Below are positions 20,280 through 60,535 of a stretch of 64,000 bases of DNA, in pieces (within the stretch, counting starts at the first letter, position 1; the number at the start of each line of letters is the position of its first letter). The notes beneath the pieces are model-generated. The model was not told the origin of the DNA. It made no database searches and worked only from the letters and a program-made list of their open reading frames with translations. The stretch comes from Ottowia sp. oral taxon 894 (GTDB taxonomy: Bacteria; Pseudomonadota; Gammaproteobacteria; Burkholderiales; Burkholderiaceae_C), in assembly GCF_001262075.1 (NCBI RefSeq), contig NZ_CP012073.1:1612001-1676000 (forward strand), in the 5' to 3' direction. The translations under genes and the position numbers were made by a program.

Positions 20280-20840
20280 TCAGCCTTGCGGGTATTCCAC
20301 GGCCAGCACTTCAATCAGCCGCGCGCCTGAAGGCGTGATCAGCTTGATTTCGTCGCCCACGCGGGCGCGCAGCAGGGCGCGGGCGATGGGGCTGATCCAG
20401 CTGACTTCGCCGCGCGCGCTCTCGGCTTCATCAATGCCCTTGATGGTCACGCGCCGCTCTTCGCCCGTGTCGCAGTCCAAGTAAGTCACGCTTGCGCCGA
20501 AGAAAACCTGGTCGCTGCCGTGGTGGGCGCTGGGGTCGGTGACGGCGGCGATTTCCAGCCGGCGCGTGAGAAAGCGGATGCGCCGGTCGATCTCGCGCAA
20601 ACGCTTTTTGCCGTAGAGGTAGTCGCCGTTTTCGCTGCGGTCGCCATTTTTGGCGGCCCAGTGCACGGCTTCCACCACTTGCGGGCGTTCGTGGTCCATC
20701 AGCTGCATCAGCTCGGCGCGCAAGGCGGCGTAGCCTGCGGGCGTGATGTAGTTGCGCCCGCCCGGCGGCAGGGGCGGCAGCGCCTGGGCGCCGTCTTCGC
20801 TGTCATCGCCATCGGTTTCTTTGGTGAAGGCTTTGCTCAT
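20280..20840 (-). CDS. greB: transcription elongation factor GreB
   Basis: This 186-residue Gre factor rescues backtracked RNA polymerase. The N-terminal coiled coil includes Y-I-T-P-A-G-Y-A-A-L-R-A-E-L and D-R-S-E-N-G-D-Y-L-Y-G-K-K-R-L-R-E, whose acidic tip residues act in transcript cleavage. The C-terminal FKBP-like domain has P-I-A-R-A-L-L. The G-K-K-R spacing marks GreB rather than GreA. The ATG at 20,840 is supported by the family; upstream codons run into the mutS stub. It was originally divergent to mutS with only 33 bp between their starts. Confidence 0.94.
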   Translation of the reverse strand: MSKAFTKETDGDDSEDGAQALPPLPPGGRNYITPAGYAALRAELMQLMDHERPQVVEAVHWAAKNGDRSENGDYLYGKKRLREIDRRIRFLTRRLEIAAVTDPSAHHGSDQVFFGASVTYLDCDTGEERRVTIKGIDEAESARGEVSWISPIARALLRARVGDEIKLITPSGARLIEVLAVEYPQG

Positions 20841-20873
20841 GTCTAATCGTTTGTTCTGCCTGAAGGAATTGCC

Positions 20874-20957
20874 GTGACCCGCCCCGATGAATTTGCCGCC
20901 CACACGCCGATGATGCAGGGGCGTTTCCCGCAGGGGAATGTGGACATAGATTGCTGA
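20874..20957 (+). pseudogene. mutS: native 5' stub of mutS left outside the prophage
   Basis: A GTG start at 20,874 lies six bases after GAAGGA (20,862-20,867). It reads T-R-P-D-E-F-A-A-H-T-P-M-M-Q and then runs 12 codons into phage DNA before a TGA. The H-T-P-M-M-Q is the conserved N-terminal motif of MutS. It is also present at the right prophage border, where the rest of mutS continues in frame. The stub is therefore the displaced original start of mutS, still with its own ribosome site and the greB-mutS promoter interval. Confidence 0.9.
20900..20918 (+). repeat. attL core
   Basis: The 19-bp sequence CCACACGCCGATGATGCAG is repeated exactly at 60,733-60,751. It encodes H-T-P-M-M-Q of MutS in the same frame at both ends. 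It marks the left end of the prophage. Confidence 0.92.
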
Positions 20958-21051
20958 AGTTACGCCAAAAACTACGCTGATCAAAATGTGACGGCATGGC
21001 CTTATGCTTCCCCCCGCCAGCTCTTGCGGAGGCTGCGCCCCTCGTTGCGGT

Positions 21052-21564
21052 TTACCAGTAGATTTTCCCGCCATCGCGAACCAAACAGCCTGCGGCGCGG
21101 GCTTTTACGGCGTTGGACTCCAATCGGGACAGTTTTTCGCCGGTGGCGGCCTTGGCGTCTGCACGCGCCAAGGCGTTTGCCTCTTTTTCGATTTGCCGCT
21201 GGAGCCACGCGGCTTCTTCTGCCTGTTGCCTGGCTTGCATTTCGTTCACCCACGCCTGTTTTTCTGGCGTGCAGCGGGCCTGGATTGCCGCAATCAATTC
21301 AGCCAAGGCTGCGTCGGAGCTGATATCGACAACCAAGCTGGATTGCCAGCCCGATTTGCGGTGCCCGGATACGCGCACTTGCTTATGCAGCGGGAATCCC
21401 AGCGGGTCAATGACGTCCAGATAAACAGATGCGCCGAAGGCAGACCCGCTGTATTCCAGGCGTACGGCGCACCCTGCCTTTTCGAGGGCAGCGGCCGCTT
21501 TTTCAGCGAAGGCGTGAATTTCGGCGCGACCACTGTTTTCGAGTTGCGAAGGATGCATGTTCAT
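21052..21564 (-). CDS. phage accessory protein of unknown function
   Basis: The 170-residue protein is not recognised. The N-terminal half contains V-R-L-E-Y-S-G-S-A-F-G-A-S-V-Y-L-D-V, suggesting a small mixed alpha/beta fold. The C-terminal half is a charged helix rich in Ala, Glu, Gln and Arg, likely coiled coil. It is the leftmost gene of the prophage and is transcribed toward attL from cassette R1. The ATG at 21,564 follows CAGGAG in that cassette. Its location and solo promoter fit a lysogenic-conversion or anti-host gene; this is inference. Confidence 0.7.
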   Translation of the reverse strand: MNMHPSQLENSGRAEIHAFAEKAAAALEKAGCAVRLEYSGSAFGASVYLDVIDPLGFPLHKQVRVSGHRKSGWQSSLVVDISSDAALAELIAAIQARCTPEKQAWVNEMQARQQAEEAAWLQRQIEKEANALARADAKAATGEKLSRLESNAVKARAAGCLVRDGGKIYW

Positions 21565-21661
21565 GGTTGACTCCTGAGAGTGCCAGATTCCGCCTGGCGT
21601 CGGTGTCAATCACTGCGATTAACATGAGATGTATTATGCATCAATAACGGGCGTTAGTCAA
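21565..21661 (-). promoter_or_regulatory. promoter/operator/leader-hairpin cassette R1
   Basis: On the minus strand: -35 TTGACT (21,656-21,661), 17-bp spacer, -10 CATAAT (21,633-21,638). Then come a diverged operator TTAATCGCAGTGATTGA, a leader hairpin GCCAGG/TCTGGC and a CAGGAG ribosome site before the gene at 21,052-21,564. The hairpin differs from the other copies by a paired change (C-G to A-T), which argues that the RNA fold is kept by selection. Confidence 0.88.
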
Positions 21662-21786
21662 GTCTTTTTTTATTTCCTGCTTATTTGTAGGGTTATTAGC
21701 CAGCGCCGGGTGGCCGCCTGCGTGGACAAGATGCAACTGACGCGGCGGGCGGGTGGCGATAGATGCAGGCATTGCTATAATGCAGT

Positions 21787-21950
21787 CAGGCAATGCGCCA
21801 CTCGCTTTTTTCTGCCGAATAGGCAGCTTAGAAAAAACAACGGCGAGAAGCAGCTCAAGCAGTAATGCGAGAGACAAGCGCAAAGCGTCTTGCCAATTTC
21901 TCTGCCGCACAGGCAGCAAAAAGGCCACCCAGAGGTGGCCTTTTGTTTTT
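21787..21950 (+). ncRNA. candidate RNA anti-CRISPR with two type I-F repeat-like hairpins
   Basis: An extended -10 promoter, TGCTATAAT (21,773-21,781), precedes a short non-coding unit ended by the terminator at 21,920-21,950. Unit 1 (21,807-21,834) has the Cas6f-type stem CTGCC-GAATA-GGCAG and the 3' handle CTTAGAAA. By hand alignment it matches a typical I-F repeat at 23 of 28 bases. Unit 2 (21,897-21,924) has CTGCC-GCACA-GGCAG and matches at 20 of 28, with a lost handle. They are 62 bases apart rather than the usual 32. Known phage-borne solitary repeats of this kind (RacrIF1) titrate Cas6f and Cas7f. That activity is inferred here, not shown. No reading frame in it looks real. Confidence 0.6.
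21920..21950. terminator. bidirectional terminator between ncRNA and the 78-aa gene
   Basis: The perfect stem AAGGCCACC/GGTGGCCTT with a CAGA loop is flanked by an A run on the left and TTTTGTTTTT on the right. It can end both the rightward ncRNA and the leftward gene at 21,960-22,196. Confidence 0.9.
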
Positions 21951-21959
21951 GGGGCGGGC

Positions 21960-22196
21960 TTACATAGCCCCGCCGCCGCCGATGTTCACATACACCTCGG
22001 GGACCTCCCCGATGGCAACTTCTTCCAGCCACGCTTTCGCGCGGCTGATGCGGCCCGTGCCGCACTGAACGAGGGCGCGCCCTCCGTCCAAGAGTTCATA
22101 CCCCCAGCAGCAGGGGCCGCTGGGAAGGGTGGTGCGGGCATAGCCCACAAGCCGCCCATTGCACAGGACGGCGGCGGTGGTGGTGGCGTTGGTCAT
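21960..22196 (-). CDS. small phage orphan protein (cassette gene, R2 promoter)
   Basis: The 78-residue protein is not recognised. It has Cys residues in V-L-C-N-G-R, P-C-C-W-G-Y and V-Q-C-G-T-G and a glycine-rich end. It forms a single-gene transcription unit between cassette R2 and the terminator at 21,920. Its size, its position in the moron zone and its neighbouring CRISPR-like RNA make an anti-CRISPR or other anti-defence role worth testing, but nothing in the sequence proves it. Confidence 0.65.
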   Translation of the reverse strand: MTNATTTAAVLCNGRLVGYARTTLPSGPCCWGYELLDGGRALVQCGTGRISRAKAWLEEVAIGEVPEVYVNIGGGGAM

Positions 22197-22293
22197 CTTT
22201 TTCTCCTAAGAGTGCCCGGTGCCGCCGGGCGTCGGTGTTGATCAACTCAATCAACATGACTTGTATTATGCATGACTAACGCCCGTTTGTCAA
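22197..22293 (-). promoter_or_regulatory. promoter/operator/leader-hairpin cassette R2
   Basis: On the minus strand: -35 TTGACA (22,288-22,293), 17-bp spacer, -10 CATAAT (22,265-22,270). Then come operator TTGATTGAGTTGATCAA, hairpin GCCCGG-CGGCA-CCGGGC and TAGGAG before the gene at 21,960-22,196. Confidence 0.9.
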
Positions 22294-22305
22294 GCGTTCA
22301 TCATG

Positions 22306-22545
22306 TTATTTTGTTTCAAAGTGTGCGGGTTTGTTCAGCCCGCGCCGGGCGGCAGCCTCAACGAGCGCGGCGTTGATGGCCGCTGTTTTGCTGCTGGCCG
22401 CACCAGCGGCCATGAGCGCATCCAGCGCGGCGGCGGCGGCGGGGGTCATCAGCCCGCCTGGCAGATAGCGCGCGCCTTTTTCGATGCGGCTCTTTTCGTT
22501 GGCGCGCGACCACACGGCTTGTTTCGCAAGATCAATTTTTCGCAT
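22306..22545 (-). CDS. small phage protein, last gene of the R3 unit
   Basis: The 79-residue protein is basic at the start (M-R-K-I-D-L-A-K-Q) and Ala-rich later, ending H-F-E-T-K. It is not recognised. It overlaps the end of the preceding gene, so it is the fourth gene of the unit begun at R3. A copy of its 3' end survives before cassette R4 (about 24,515-24,545), which points to past recombination among cassettes. Confidence 0.65.
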   Translation of the reverse strand: MRKIDLAKQAVWSRANEKSRIEKGARYLPGGLMTPAAAAALDALMAAGAASSKTAAINAALVEAAARRGLNKPAHFETK

Positions 22546-23467: not shown

Positions 23468-23887
23468 TCAGAACCTCCCAACCAGCACGAACTTGGATGG
23501 CAAGGAGCGGTTGTCAATCCACCACCCCGCATTGGTGATTGCGCGCAGGCGCTCGATGTTGGCACGCGCTTTTTGCAGGTTGCCTGCGATGACAGGCTCA
23601 TTGGCGCGGTCTCCCAATTTAGCTACCTCGGAGTGCAGCAATTGCTCCGCCTGCTGGATCATACCGGGCCGAATATCGGCCGCCCATGCGATTTGTCTAT
23701 CGCTGCCTTCCAGGGCGGGCAACCCTTCGGCGGTGGCTGTTTCCTGCGCCGCTTTTGCGCGGCAGGCGGGGCACGGTTGGTGCTCCCCCTGCTCGGCCAT
23801 GTAGGCCACCTGCTTGCCGTAGCCGCAGCCTGGGATAAAGGCTTCACCTGCGTGACCGCAAGAATGTGTAAACGTTTTACGCGACAT
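23468..23887 (-). CDS. zinc-ribbon-like phage protein (R3 promoter)
   Basis: The 139-residue protein has an N-terminal motif resembling a zinc ribbon (H-S-C-G-H near residues 8-12, then C-P-A-C near 39-42) followed by a helical region. Such proteins are common in phage accessory regions, but no specific function can be named. It is the first gene of the R3 unit, with AAGGAG ten bases before the ATG at 23,887. Confidence 0.7.
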   Translation of the reverse strand: MSRKTFTHSCGHAGEAFIPGCGYGKQVAYMAEQGEHQPCPACRAKAAQETATAEGLPALEGSDRQIAWAADIRPGMIQQAEQLLHSEVAKLGDRANEPVIAGNLQKARANIERLRAITNAGWWIDNRSLPSKFVLVGRF

Positions 23888-23985
23888 AATTTTTCTCCTT
23901 AGAGTTCCCGGTGCCGCCGGGCGTCGGTGTTGATCATCCCGATCAACATGAGATGTATTGTGCCTTAATAACGGGCGTTAGTCAA
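23888..23985 (-). promoter_or_regulatory. promoter/operator/leader-hairpin cassette R3
   Basis: On the minus strand: -35 TTGACT (23,980-23,985), 17-bp spacer, -10 CACAAT (23,957-23,962). Then come operator TTGATCGGGATGATCAA, hairpin GCCCGG-CGGCA-CCGGGA and AAGGAG. It drives a four-gene unit running to 22,306. Confidence 0.9.
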
Positions 23986-24114: not shown

Positions 24115-24417
24115 TCAGACACGCCAGAAGCTGGCATCGTCATCCAGCGCTACGCGCTTGTCACCCAGGTCGATCACAGCCAGAGGGCGGCGGCGGTCGC
24201 CTTTGCGCACTTGCACATGCTCCCATGCCACGAAGGGCATGCCGGCCACAGTGCCACGAATCGTTTTGGCGCTGCATTCGGCCCAGCCTTGGCTGGCGGC
24301 CTCAAAGTCGGCCAGCGTGTCGGCCGTTTCCACGGCTTCCACCATCCAAGAGCCGCCATCCAGCAGATCAGGCAATGCAGCTTCCAGGGCGGCCAGTTTT
24401 TCGTTTGCGTTTGTCAT
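24115..24417 (-). CDS. small acidic phage protein (R4 promoter)
   Basis: The 100-residue protein is acidic and not recognised. It contains E-A-V-E-T-A-D-T-L-A-D-F-E-A-A and ends D-D-D-A-S-F-W-R-V. It forms a single-gene unit between cassette R4 and a hairpin terminator. Acidic small phage proteins are frequent among DNA-mimic or anti-defence factors, but this is only an analogy. Confidence 0.68.
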   Translation of the reverse strand: MTNANEKLAALEAALPDLLDGGSWMVEAVETADTLADFEAASQGWAECSAKTIRGTVAGMPFVAWEHVQVRKGDRRRPLAVIDLGDKRVALDDDASFWRV

Positions 24418-24514
24418 GTTTGACTCCTTAGAGTGCCCGGTGCCGCCGGGCGTCGGTGTTGATCACCCCGATCAACATGACTTGTATTATGCATGACTAA
24501 CGCCCGGTAGTCAA
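24418..24514 (-). promoter_or_regulatory. promoter/operator/leader-hairpin cassette R4
   Basis: On the minus strand: -35 TTGACT (24,509-24,514), 17-bp spacer, -10 CATAAT (24,486-24,491). Then come operator TTGATCGGGGTGATCAA, hairpin GCCCGG-CGGCA-CCGGGC and AAGGAG before the gene at 24,115-24,417. Confidence 0.9.
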
Positions 24515-24742
24515 TTGTGCATCATGTTACTTTGTTTCAAAGTGTTCATGCTTGCCCGTCATCAGCAAACCGTCAGGCGCACCCAGCGTGCATCCATCGT
24601 TTGCGGGGCCGCGCCCAGGCCCCAGGTTTCAGGCCGCTGCTAGTCCGGGCGGGGGCATTGCAGCACGAGTTCGCCGTTGCAAAAGTCAATTATGCTACCG
24701 GTGTATTTCTCGACACTCGCTTTTCTTTCAACCGTATAAGCA
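24515..24742 (-). other. remnant of a deleted cassette gene
   Basis: Immediately upstream of R4 the minus strand reads CACTTTGAAACAAAGTAA, encoding H-F-E-T-K and a stop. This is the same ending as the gene at 22,306-22,545, which lies at the same distance upstream of R2. The rest of the stretch holds no complete gene. It looks like the tail of a lost gene left by recombination between promoter cassettes. Confidence 0.55.
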
Positions 24743-24777: not shown

Positions 24778-25116
24778 TTACCAAGCTTTTTCGCTGATTA
24801 TGTCGATTTCTGGCGGCATATCAGAATCAACTGTATGCACGTGCATCACCCGCCTTCCTGACACCCTGGCGTGAAATGTTCCAGGGTAAAAATAGGTTAT
24901 TTCCTTGATGCCCCATCCGTCCTTGTATCTGCACGGCACATAATCGGGCGCTTCGTATTCCCCATGCGCCAAATAATATCTCCCCGCAGGGAAAAACTTC
25001 CCCCCTTTACTTGACTCAGACAGATGCCTTGCTTGCCGCAAGGCATCTATGACTGCTTTTTTCGTTTCCCACACCTTGTAGAGGCCGTCTTGCAGTTGGT
25101 TTTGGGGCTTGCTCAT
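24778..25116 (-). CDS. small phage protein (R5 promoter)
   Basis: The 112-residue protein is not recognised. It has an aromatic, beta-rich middle (G-R-Y-Y-L-A-H-G-E-Y-E-A-P-D-Y-V-P-C-R-Y) and ends with an acidic segment. It is a single-gene unit between cassette R5 and the terminator at 24,743. Its lower GC content compared with the structural genes suggests separate acquisition. Confidence 0.68.
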   Translation of the reverse strand: MSKPQNQLQDGLYKVWETKKAVIDALRQARHLSESSKGGKFFPAGRYYLAHGEYEAPDYVPCRYKDGWGIKEITYFYPGTFHARVSGRRVMHVHTVDSDMPPEIDIISEKAW

Positions 25117-25213
25117 TTTGATCTCCTTAGAGTTCCCGGTGCCGCCGGGCGTCGGTGTTGATCACCCCGATCAACATGACTTGTATTATGCATGACTAAC
25201 GCCCGTTTGTCAA
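25117..25213 (-). promoter_or_regulatory. promoter/operator/leader-hairpin cassette R5
   Basis: On the minus strand: -35 TTGACA (25,208-25,213), 17-bp spacer, -10 CATAAT (25,185-25,190). Then come operator TTGATCGGGGTGATCAA, hairpin GCCCGG-CGGCA-CCGGGA and AAGGAG before the gene at 24,778-25,116. Confidence 0.9.
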
Positions 25214-25501: not shown

Positions 25502-26293
25502 TCAAAAAAGCCCCGCCGGATCGCTGGCGCGGCTCCAGTTGTAGATGATGAGTTCGCCCGCGTGCTTGGTGTCGCCGCCTGCAAGGCCGTGGGCCAGGGT
25601 GGTGCGCTCGATGTCGTAGCCGTCAAAGCAGCGGCGGATGTCGGGATGGTCGCCCAGGCTGACGATGGCTTTGCCTTGCAGGGTGCGCAGGGTGGCGGCC
25701 ATGTGCTCGTATTCGGGCCAGTCGAACGGAACGCCGTAGCCTTCCGTTTGCCAGTAAGGCGGGTCTAGATAAAAAAGGGTGTGCGGGCGGTCGTAGCGGC
25801 GCAGGCATTCGCGCCAGTCCAGACGCTCAATGTAAGCGCCGGTGAGGCGCAGATGGGCGGCGCTCAAGGTTTCTTCCAGCCGCAACAGATTGACGGTTGG
25901 CGCTGGCGCGGTGGTGGAGTTGCCCCAGCTTTGCCCTTGGACTTTGCCGCCGAATGCCTGGTGTTGCAGGTAAAAAAAGCGGGCGGCGCGCTGAATGTCA
26001 GTCAGGGTTTCGGGGCGGGTGGTTTGCAGCCACTTAAACACTTCGCGGCTGGAAAGCGCCCACTTGAATTGGCGAACGAACTCCTCGAGATGTGTTTTGA
26101 CAACCCGGTAGAGATTGACCAGCTCGCCATTGACGTCGTTAATGACCTCAACTTTTGAAGGGTTTTTGAGAAAGTAGAGGGCCGCGCCACCTGCGAAGAC
26201 CTCAACGTAGCAGGTGTGGCGCGGAAAGCGGGGGATGAGGTGTTCGGCCAGGCGGCGTTTGCCGCCGATCCACGGGATGATGGGTGTGGGCAT
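25502..26293 (-). CDS. Dam-family DNA adenine methyltransferase
   Basis: This 263-residue D12-class N6-adenine methyltransferase has the N-terminal P-W-I-G-G-K-R-R-L-A-E-H motif, the SAM-binding F-A-G-G-A-A-L-Y-F and the catalytic motif DPPY in L-F-Y-L-D-P-P-Y-W. It probably modifies phage or host DNA at a short palindrome, protecting it from restriction or altering expression. The ATG at 26,293 begins at the conserved start. It sits between the lysis genes and the accessory zone. Confidence 0.9.
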   Translation of the reverse strand: MPTPIIPWIGGKRRLAEHLIPRFPRHTCYVEVFAGGAALYFLKNPSKVEVINDVNGELVNLYRVVKTHLEEFVRQFKWALSSREVFKWLQTTRPETLTDIQRAARFFYLQHQAFGGKVQGQSWGNSTTAPAPTVNLLRLEETLSAAHLRLTGAYIERLDWRECLRRYDRPHTLFYLDPPYWQTEGYGVPFDWPEYEHMAATLRTLQGKAIVSLGDHPDIRRCFDGYDIERTTLAHGLAGGDTKHAGELIIYNWSRASDPAGLF

Positions 26294-26447
26294 GTTTGCG
26301 AGTCTTTCGGCTTGTAAAAAGTGATTACACTGCCCGCGCCCGATCGGGTGGGCGGGGCCTTGCTGGCTCGCAGGTGCGTTCTGCGGGGCGGGGCCGGGCC
26401 AGGTGGTGACGCATCTGGCGCGGTCGCTCCGTCCTTTTTTGAGTCGG

Positions 26448-26729
26448 TTATGGCGGCGCGGTGCATGCCGCCAATGCGGCGCGTAGCTGGACCTCGTAGC
26501 CTTCGCGACGCTCGATTTCCGCGATGGCGGCCGCCGCGAAAGCATCCAGCGTCACATCGGCGGCTAGCGCTTCCGTGGGCATTGCCGGGCGCGGCGGCTC
26601 ACTTTCGCGGCACGCCACGGGCACGGGCACATGGACCTGCTGCACGCGCGGGGCAGGCTGGGCGGCGCAACCGGCCAGCAGGGCGGACAGCGCCGCAACT
26701 ATCAATGATTGCTTGACTGTTGCCGTCAT
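26448..26729 (-). CDS. Rz1-like o-spanin lipoprotein
   Basis: The 93-residue protein has a lipoprotein signal with lipobox L-A-G-C (Cys about residue 21) and a proline-rich stretch after it. It overlaps the stop of the i-spanin gene (ATGA). It should be the outer-membrane half of the spanin complex that disrupts the outer membrane during lysis. Confidence 0.8.
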   Translation of the reverse strand: MTATVKQSLIVAALSALLAGCAAQPAPRVQQVHVPVPVACRESEPPRPAMPTEALAADVTLDAFAAAAIAEIERREGYEVQLRAALAACTAPP

Positions 26730-52541: not shown

Positions 52542-52575
52542 ATTATAGCAGTTGTCAAGCAAACTTTGACAACTG
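52542..52575 (-). promoter_or_regulatory. extended -10 promoter with overlapping palindromic operator
   Basis: On the minus strand TGCTATAAT (52,542-52,550) is an extended -10 element. It is directly preceded by the inverted repeat CAGTTGTCAA...TTGACAACTG (52,549-52,575), which would cover the -35 to -10 region. It is placed to control the primase operon and to respond to a repressor. Confidence 0.75.
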
Positions 52576-59251: not shown

Positions 59252-60535
59252 TTACGTTTTTGCGACCTGCTCTAGTTTGTCGCTGAGGCGCTGGAGCCAA
59301 TGCCTGCGCTCCGCGTCATATGAGTGCAGGTTGTAGATGCCCTCAACGCCTGGGCGCATGTGGCCGAGAACGCTTTCGGCGACGTCGGCCGGGCAGCCCA
59401 TGCTGGCCAGCAAGGTGCGGACGGTGCGCCGCAATATGTGAGGCGTCCAGCCAACAACCGGCAGGCGCGGGCGTTGCTCTTGCGGCCGGAGCTGGCAGCC
59501 GGGCATGTGAAACCAGACGGCGACGCCGACCACTTTTTGATCGGAATGAGTGATGCGCCCGTCTTTTGTGCTGGCAGGAAAAAGCCAGCCGGATGGCGGG
59601 GCGGTGCGCATGCGGCGCTGAACGACATCCAGCGCCCGCCCTGCCAACGGCACGCGCTGGGCCGTGGCGTTTTTGTGGCGTGCATTTTTGGTTTTTACTT
59701 TTGGAATCGTCCACCACCATCCGTCATTTTCTTGCGTGATTTCGGCGGCTTGCATGGCAACGATTTCTGCGCCGCGTGTGCCTGTCCATAAATACATGGT
59801 CAGAATATCAGCGATCAGGGGCGAAAAATTGGGCAGCCAATTAATCAGTGCGCCAATTTCGGCCTCGCTGAGCACGCGGGCGGCGCGGTCTTGGTGCCCT
59901 TGTTTCGTGAGGGTGCCTTTGCTGCGCAGGCGCGTTCGCATGACGAGCCGCCACCAGTTGACGGCGGAATCCGGCAGGCGGCCCGCATCAGCGGCGTAAT
60001 CCCATGCCGCCGCCAGCTCGCGGCGGAGCATGTTGGCTTGCACGGGCGTGCTGGACAGCTTTTCCAGCAACTCGAATGCAGCGGCGCGGGGCAATGCGCT
60101 GGCAGTCTGGAGGGCGATAGTGCCGAGATGCCGGCTGAATAGCCGAGCGATCTCCGCCGCGCCTTTGGCTTTGCGCCGCTGGCGAATGTGCCCCTGCAAG
60201 TAGTCGGAGACCAAATGTTCGACCGTGTAGATATCGACGCGAGCTGGTTGTTTGGACTGCCGCTGGGCGCGAGCGGTGCGTTTGACCAGCGCCGGATCGA
60301 CGCCCGCCTCACGCTCACCGCGCAGGCGCTCCCACTCGCCCGCCGCCGCTGCGAGCGACATGGCTGGCCAGTGCCCCAGCGCGACCTGGCGCATGCGGCC
60401 ATCTATAGGGGACTTGTATCTGTACGTCCATGTCCGATGCGTGCGAGTGGCCACCAGCCGCAAGCCTGGGCAACCATCCACAATCAGCCGCTGCCCAGGC
60501 AGCAGGCTCTTTGCTGTGCGTGCGTCGATCTTCAT
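59252..60535 (-). CDS. int: tyrosine recombinase integrase
   Basis: The 427-residue integrase has an N-terminal arm-binding DUF4102-like domain, a core-binding domain and a catalytic domain. Catalytic residues are Arg254 (T-G-T-R-G-A-E), His366 and Arg369 (H-I-L-R-R), His392 (L-G-H-M-R-P) and nucleophile Tyr401 (G-I-Y-N-L-H-S-Y). It lies beside attR and reads away from mutS. It must recombine the 19-bp mutS core rather than a tRNA gene. Confidence 0.95.
   Translation of the reverse strand: MKIDARTAKSLLPGQRLIVDGCPGLRLVATRTHRTWTYRYKSPIDGRMRQVALGHWPAMSLAAAAGEWERLRGEREAGVDPALVKRTARAQRQSKQPARVDIYTVEHLVSDYLQGHIRQRRKAKGAAEIARLFSRHLGTIALQTASALPRAAAFELLEKLSSTPVQANMLRRELAAAWDYAADAGRLPDSAVNWWRLVMRTRLRSKGTLTKQGHQDRAARVLSEAEIGALINWLPNFSPLIADILTMYLWTGTRGAEIVAMQAAEITQENDGWWWTIPKVKTKNARHKNATAQRVPLAGRALDVVQRRMRTAPPSGWLFPASTKDGRITHSDQKVVGVAVWFHMPGCQLRPQEQRPRLPVVGWTPHILRRTVRTLLASMGCPADVAESVLGHMRPGVEGIYNLHSYDAERRHWLQRLSDKLEQVAKT

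Follow-up and report, generated by a model that had tools for sequence, protein, structure and literature searches.

Results

Two Type I-F Repeat-Like Hairpins in a Putative Prophage Transcription Unit

The window, the whole 64,000-nt stretch of Ottowia sp. oral taxon 894 DNA analyzed here, carries prophage genes for terminase, portal, capsid, tape measure, holin, and endolysin. An integrase gene (profile match) lies at 59252–60535, and the prophage ends near greB (20280–21074). At this end of the prophage, in the accessory region that separates the lysis genes from greB, an extended −10 promoter element, two type I-F repeat hairpins, and a terminator follow one another at 21773–21950 on the + strand. 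The promoter element, TGCTATAAT (21773–21781, + strand), was recognized by its sequence, and transcription is predicted to start near 21788. The string TGNTATAAT at 21773 is the sole + strand occurrence in the window (63% GC), with one − strand occurrence at 52550. The element is absent from a sigma-70 scan, which requires a −35 box.

Repeat-like unit 1 (21807–21834, + strand) contains a CTGCC/GGCAG stem at 21812–21826 with the loop GAATA, followed by the handle CTTAGAAA at 21827–21834. After a 62-nt interval between the 28-nt repeats (21835–21896, + strand), repeat-like unit 2 (21897–21924, + strand) shows the same stem letters at 21902–21916 around the loop GCACA, without a handle; start to start, the hairpins are 90 nt apart. 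Both retain the C6–G20 pair at the stem base that Cas6f needs. Against Rfam model RF01317 (CRISPR-DR4), hairpin 1 scores 34.4 bits (E 3.5e-5), just below the gathering cutoff of 35, and hairpin 2 scores 22.3 bits (E 0.19 in 4 kb). In genome-wide scoring, which covered 150 of 2404 first-look candidates, the two are the best RF01317 matches reported in the 2.93-Mb genome (E 5.9e-6 and 0.03); the third among the matches reported reaches 20.1 bits. By our own count, hairpin 1 is identical to the Rfam consensus at 23 of 28 places and hairpin 2 at 21 of 28, and the two hairpins share 20 of 28 places.

An earlier note on this DNA, made from the sequence alone, had described an extended −10 promoter, two CTGCC-N5-GGCAG hairpins, a 62-nt interval, and a terminator, all of which lie where it placed them. 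It had also credited hairpin 1 with an I-F handle and 23 of 28 repeat positions, the same count that we obtain against the consensus. Its figure of 20 of 28 for hairpin 2 becomes 21 of 28 in our recount against the consensus.

The intrinsic terminator has an 11-bp stem (21919–21944, + strand; sequence and terminator listing) and, because T-runs lie on both sides of it, could also serve the − strand gene at 21960–22196. Cas6f processing is predicted to yield a 90-nt product (21827–21916, + strand) made up of the 8-nt handle, the 62 nt, and a 20-nt 3′ repeat part. The predicted RNA (21788–21950) folds more strongly than 200 of 200 shuffles (z = −4.0), in part from the terminator and long-range pairing, and modeled folding partly over the handle could hinder processing. 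No compensated middle hairpin was found within the 62-nt interval. The half-repeat-like GCAGCTCA at 21850–21857 was considered for this role and rejected, as it lies off the place expected for a middle hairpin.

The unit sits between two − strand orphan ORFs and is antisense to both. The left-hand ORF (21052–21609, − strand; up to 185 aa) reads away from the unit and has no PHROG, PADLOC, or PDB match and no Pfam match above the cutoff; a search for its relatives among viral contigs gave 24 pattern stretches, none confirmed. The right-hand ORF (21960–22196, − strand; 78 aa) reads toward the unit and has no match in PHROG, PADLOC, Pfam, or PDB. Among 200 family genomes, a match was found in one other genome, where stops interrupt it. 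Profile searches found no known Acr or Aca gene beside the unit. A promoter and leader module recurs in five copies (21571–21662, 22190–22310, 23890–23951, 24424–24529, and 25122–25213), which are 79–95% identical to the second copy over 62–106 nt. Each copy lies by the start of a small orphan ORF on the − strand (21052–21609, 21960–22196, 23468–23887, 24115–24417, and 24778–25116). These ORFs are possibly a jointly regulated set around the unit and possible anti-defense genes. A DNA methyltransferase gene lies at 25502–26545.

Host Genome, Relatives, and Spacer Matches

Our searches of the unit's own genome returned no Cas6f match and no CRISPR array, in line with the earlier claim of no cas genes and no further repeats. 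Cas6f is present in 3 of 29 genomes of the genus, and in the arrays of two genus genomes the repeat stem has the same letters as the window hairpins. An array repeat from the same order, GTTCGCTGCCGCACAGGCAGCTTAGAAA, shares 23 of 28 places with unit 1 (own count). For the third Cas6f genome of the genus (G022), the fetched stretch contains no array; its locus L256 carries, on the − strand, single I-F–like stems, none in an array and one upstream of csy1.

No DNA homologs of the unit were found in phages or plasmids. In 99 relatives, none of the matches listed covers the unit; the best of those listed comprises 28 terminator bases (E 8e-6), and the others are short pieces or array. We compared 233 array spacers, taken from two genomes of the genus and one of the order, with the window; the best match has seven mismatches. 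Real spacers match the window slightly better than shuffled ones, an excess that we put down to composition.

The note had also raised the idea of a mini-array aimed at a rival phage, in which the 62-nt spacer would direct a host I-F system against a competing element. Extended guides including one of 62 nt are interference-competent in a I-F1 system (PMC7296934), and virus-borne mini-arrays are known (PMC11656645). Here, however, the interval is unlike an acquired spacer in length (62 vs. about 32 nt), repeat 2 is degenerate, and the search of 21835–21896 against phages and plasmids that the note had proposed gave no convincing match (best E 0.1), nor did an off-site search of the own genome (E 2). 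We regard such a use as highly improbable.

Related Multihairpin Units in Viral Contigs

The published SRUFinder rules ask for no >70% match in the flanking 100 bp and for at least 90% identity over 90% of a known repeat (PMC10651486). Applied by our own count, these rules exclude the window unit, the second hairpin of which lies within 100 nt. Because published rules for solitary repeat units reject any candidate that has another repeat-like match within 100 bp, we searched viral contigs for paired stems with I-F loops and non-array spacing in five scans, including one of genomes. Clusters with similar flanks were joined into one family. This gave 38 flank-independent families, of which 35 come from viral contigs and two (L067/L087 and L076) from bacterial contigs; the remaining one is that of the window. 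Clusters with array-like start-to-start spacing (58–62) were left out by definition, as were L063, a locus also having array spacing, and four non-array clusters without a handle of 6 of 8 (L018, L032, L049, and L201). A set of 34 families, used below for gene neighbors, follows a different dereplication rule from the set of 38, and a unit found later in genome G426 belongs to neither.

Families have two to five hairpins once divergent stems are added; in L102, five hairpins follow one another, each 48 nt apart. At L102:7781–7987 and in its flank relatives (L105, L109, L137, L141, L151, L174, L179, L180, L197, and L203), there are two to five exact hairpins, and copy number varies while spacing hardly does (46–55 nt). 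L063, from a Thauera MAG, has I-F repeats on the − strand at irregular distances of 51–57 nt beside array spacing, and some of its handles look shifted by one base. Two families, L067/L087 and L076, are chromosomal: the paired hairpins of L067 lie between ilvC and purC, those of L076 lie near a sulfide quinone reductase gene, and neither place is obviously phage. The L067 and L087 genomes have a Csy1 gene, and a Gallibacterium genome with one L023-family copy has a Cas8f (Csy1) gene. No Csy1 match was found in the Rudaea genome with an L059 copy or in the L076 genome.

Among 80 viral loci listed with an exact stem and handle, 35 are arrays, 25 are multihairpin units, 15 are solitary, and 5 are at contig edges; the loci are not dereplicated, and 2 of the 25 multihairpin units rest on a stem with one mismatch. 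Multihairpin units thus outnumber solitary ones in this listed sample. In 398 other genomes of the order, two search patterns matched four places, spread over three genomes; three of the places are in long arrays and one is a two-hairpin unit (in G426). A genome scan for the long layout returned mostly long real arrays with one odd spacing. The observation made in the window is real, and the unit there is part of a recurrent feature, mostly of phages.

Interval Lengths, Handle Order, and Stem Pairing

Across the families, 48 of 62 adjacent intervals measure 14–29 nt, 7 are shorter, and 7 are longer; two stem distances above 110 nt, which L031 and L103 owe to extra stems that look like chance, were left out of the 62. 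The window's 62 nt is the longest. Peaks fall at 14 nt (n = 6), 18 nt (n = 11), 19 nt (n = 5), and 20 nt (n = 10). The gap near 32 nt arises by construction, array spacing having been excluded beforehand. A 6-nt period is not clear in these intervals, in which 18 and 19 nt are both common.

A scan made without a handle condition gave 42 clusters, and in 33 of them, the handle follows the first stem and not the last. It follows both stems in eight clusters, neither in one, and only the last in none. Handle first and stem last is the order to be expected of an RNA that is released between two cuts and has to carry a 5′ handle and a 3′ stem. A degenerate last repeat is also common in real arrays, so this order is compatible with any use of the RNA in the manner of a crRNA. 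Near the units, 11 handle-like motifs lack an exact stem; 9 of these follow a 5-bp stem in which every base pairs, compared with 1 of 40 such motifs elsewhere in the same loci. Eight of the nine stems have other letters (e.g., CTGCT/AGCAG and CTACC/GGTAG); one of the changed-letter stems (L044) is not I-F–like in look. Downstream of the last stem, 14 of 38 families have a terminator, compared with 0.6% of 664 random places.

The 90-nt layout recurs in viral contig L237, where a T-run precedes CTGCC-GAATA-GGCAG-CTTAGAAA, a second stem follows exactly 90 nt on, and a terminator closes the unit; this second stem is imperfect and lacks a handle. In L027, stem distances of 46 and 44 nt add up to 90, and the terminator is similar. 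The interval sequences differ among the window, L237, and L027. From these few cases, spacing rather than sequence seems to be kept, a weak indication.

These data bear on whether the window hairpins could be the remnant of a decayed array or a structured small RNA that resembles I-F repeats by chance. Such an origin would agree with the lack of a Cas6f match in the host and with the strong structure of the RNA. Against it stand the genome-wide E of 5.9e-6 for hairpin 1, the prophage location, and the many viral families that share order and pairing, and we consider it very unlikely.

Anti-CRISPR Genes Beside Related Units

We examined the neighbors of 34 families (126 ORFs; for the window, its real ORFs replaced opposite-strand ones) and of six more families (22 ORFs). 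The Pfam AcrF8 profile matches 3 of the 126 ORFs (E 6.5e-25, 1.7e-16, and 1.9e-11), in 3 of the 34 families. In L184 and L118, the matching gene is directly before the unit; in L053, it is one gene away, with an Aca2-like gene between. In a fourth family, L161, the preceding gene has a subthreshold AcrF1 match. Weakly similar small proteins lie beside the units at L161:2034–2405 and L023:1477–1722 and are candidate AcrIF1 relatives. The 22 neighbors of the six further families include no Acr, and 109 distal ORFs show none in the 25 of 44 Pfam families listed. The Pfam listing for the near ORFs covers 25 of 60 families, and weak matches could hide in the near or the distal set. PHROGs and NCBIfam searches of the 126 neighbors gave no Acr among the families listed (25 of 80 and 25 of 93, respectively), and a PDB search with one L017-family neighbor gave nothing convincing. 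As a count, 3 of 126 near ORFs against 0 of 109 distal ones is not significant; the AcrF8 neighbors carry weight because the base rate is low.

A tblastn search with the L053 and L184 proteins found relatives in 2 of 50,697 phage records, both of them Pectobacterium phage ZF40. ZF40 (L253:3790–3804) has one I-F stem, CTGCC-GCACA-GGCAG, without a handle. It lies about 180 nt after gp30, with gp29 between; gp30, the gene following the AcrIF8-like one, is a putative aca2. AcrIF8 relatives occur at three multihairpin families as in this ZF40 locus, whereas the window unit has no AcrIF8 or Aca2 neighbor.

The gene neighborhoods could instead reflect a regulatory role, in which Cas6f cutting in I-F hosts would process or destabilize phage transcripts, for example tuning neighboring anti-defense genes. 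Some units lie just 3′ of an acr-like gene, and an ATG-started ORF begins within about 70 nt after the last stem in 19 of 38 families, compared with 28% of random places. The window unit, however, is antisense to both neighbors and has its own terminator, and simple cutting does not need handle conservation. Regulation of this kind would surprise us greatly.

A Related Unit Upstream of a Type I-F cas Operon

G426, a Cas6f-bearing genome from the same order, carries a unit in which two hairpins enclose a 26-nt interval and a terminator follows (L270:9738–9792, − strand), just upstream of its type I-F cas operon and about 4.6 kb from the array. The interval agrees at 19 of 26 places with a CC-flanked site at L270:9903, between the unit and the operon. 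The first five places are all identical, and 1 of 200 shuffled guides matches as well. Judged from its sequence and position, the G426 unit looks like a guide that represses cas, a possible autorepressor.

Phages might then copy a host autorepressor, with a guide that would send host Cascade to the cas promoter and repress it without cutting. PMC10651486 mentions Cas-dependent repression that involves CRISPR repeat-like RNAs, and short guides bind without licensing Cas2/3 (PMC7296934). The partial promoter match in G426 also speaks for this explanation. Against it, the window guide has no distinct cas-promoter match in five loci (L254–L257 and L270), and the guides of L099, L067, and L087 have none near their own csy1. 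Across 46 family guides and 13 csy1 upstream stretches, the real guides match better than shuffled ones (0 of 100 as good; differences of −11 and −14), but part of this excess also appears with random stretches taken from those loci (−5.8, sd 5.5; −3.0, sd 5.7). We hold promoter-directed repression to be distinctly unlikely for the window unit. Because of the G426 unit, we nevertheless lowered slightly our confidence in a crRNA-like decoy and, by still less, in selection-tuned intervals, both set out below.

A Predicted crRNA-Like Decoy

On balance, we lean toward the window unit being a prophage noncoding RNA that mimics I-F repeats and is processed by Cas6f into a crRNA-like decoy. The RNA would be transcribed from its own promoter, and host Cas6f, which cuts a stem at its 3′ base (PMC10651486), would cut it at the base of both hairpins. 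The fragment released would resemble a crRNA: its 5′ handle would offer a site for Cas5f/Cas8f and its 3′ hairpin one for Cas6f, and the spacer-like stretch between them would have the wrong length. Such a decoy would draw Cas6f, Cas7f, and, via the handle, Cas5f/Cas8f into complexes without a useful target. By L = 6N − 4, the 62-nt interval would take up 11 Cas7f instead of 6 (62 = 6 × 11 − 4).

The published basis lies in engineered I-F1 guides and in RNA anti-CRISPRs. In the I-F1 system, a spacer of about 14 nt is already enough for Cascade to assemble, Cas2/3 is not triggered by spacers shorter than 32 nt, and engineered guides of 14–26 nt support assembly without licensing Cas2/3 (PMC7296934). 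Longer spacers, including 62 nt (+30), assemble following L = 6N − 4 and do trigger Cas2/3 (PMC7296934). Most related intervals fall between the 14-nt assembly limit and the 32-nt Cas2/3 limit reported there. I-F is inhibited by a repeat mimic, which acts through Cas6f and Cas7f, and by a nontargeting crRNA as well (PMC10651486). From these length limits and these two forms of inhibition, we infer crRNA-like decoys. The anatomy, the recurring layout, the handle order, the stem pairing, the terminators, and the anti-CRISPR genes at some relatives are observations; expression, for which the window unit bears promoter and terminator signatures only, would be a step of the proposal, as would Cas6f cutting, complex assembly, and inhibition by the unit. 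Several points weigh against a decoy: 62 nt exceeds the common 14–29 nt, such a guide with a target would permit interference, no Cas6f match was found in the own host, and the terminator may instead serve the gene on the opposite strand.

A simpler arrangement would be a solitary repeat of the RacrIF1 type, in which hairpin 1 and the RNA upstream of its cut would bind Cas6f and a Cas7f filament, and hairpin 2 would be decaying or incidental. Hairpin 1 alone almost reaches the Rfam cutoff, solitary repeats make up 15 of the 80 loci listed, and the activity of RacrIF1 is described as lying in the product upstream of the cut (PMC10651486). That product measures 70–76 nt in RacrIF1 (PMC10651486), compared with about 39 nt here from the predicted start. 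Moreover, the 90-nt two-hairpin layout is found again in L237, and multihairpin units outnumber solitary ones, 25 to 15, in the listed, nondereplicated loci. We therefore judge a solitary mode of action unlikely, if less so than the other alternatives.

Extended from the window to its relatives, the crRNA-like decoy suggests that phages encode a distinct kind of RNA anti-CRISPR with two to five I-F hairpins and intervals tuned by selection. These intervals would be long enough (about 14 nt) for Cascade to assemble via the handle and too short (<32 nt) for the R-loop length checkpoint, or over-long and draining Cas7f, as in the window. We offer this broader proposal tentatively and give it somewhat less than an even chance.

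Discussion

The window unit shows the Racr traits of repeat mimicry in sequence and hairpin (RF01317, 34.4 and 22.3 bits) and of being encoded between genes of a mobile element, here a prophage. It falls outside the published solitary rule but probably works like a Racr. RacrIF1, from a Thiocystis violascens prophage and known here by its description (PMC10651486), is likewise an intergenic small RNA with an I-F hairpin that keeps C6–G20. It was selected as a solitary repeat unit, whereas the window has two hairpins 90 nt apart, so that a handle-bearing product is predicted. The I-F relation and RNA anti-CRISPR–like role put forward in the earlier note gain support from the related phage units, three of them at AcrIF8-like genes. 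Its suggestion of a new layout holds insofar as the published solitary-repeat rules exclude the unit; the layout itself is one form of a wider multihairpin kind. Judged by titles and the opening of abstracts, we recognized no description of multihairpin Racr units among the papers listed.

Other known systems resemble the unit in part. Virus-borne mini-arrays likewise place two or more repeats in a viral genome that has no cas genes (PMC11656645), but their intervals are about 32 nt, compared with 62 nt in the window and 14–29 nt in most related units; in the window, no target was found, and the last repeat is degenerate. The altered-length I-F1 Cascades were built with laboratory-engineered crRNAs of 14–26 nt and also with a 62-nt (+30) guide (PMC7296934), whereas the lengths reported here come from natural phage sequences. 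crRNA-like RNAs that repress cas genes exist, and the short-interval G426 unit beside its cas operon, with a partial promoter match, is like them; the window unit differs in lying in a prophage, in a genome without a Cas6f match, and in having no such target found.

Published search rules miss the multihairpin form, which is commoner than the solitary form in the sample examined. If the proposal of wrong-length, crRNA-like phage decoys is true, the catalogued RNA anti-CRISPRs would be only part of the set, and decoys of this kind would capture the handle-binding subunits too. The published length checkpoint of I-F Cascade would then be linked to a natural phage strategy. If instead the guides repress cas promoters, phages would carry guides that switch off host immunity, which would be as telling. 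The decoy proposal, if true, would also supply a simple search rule for more such units, the gene neighbors of which would be anti-CRISPR candidates.
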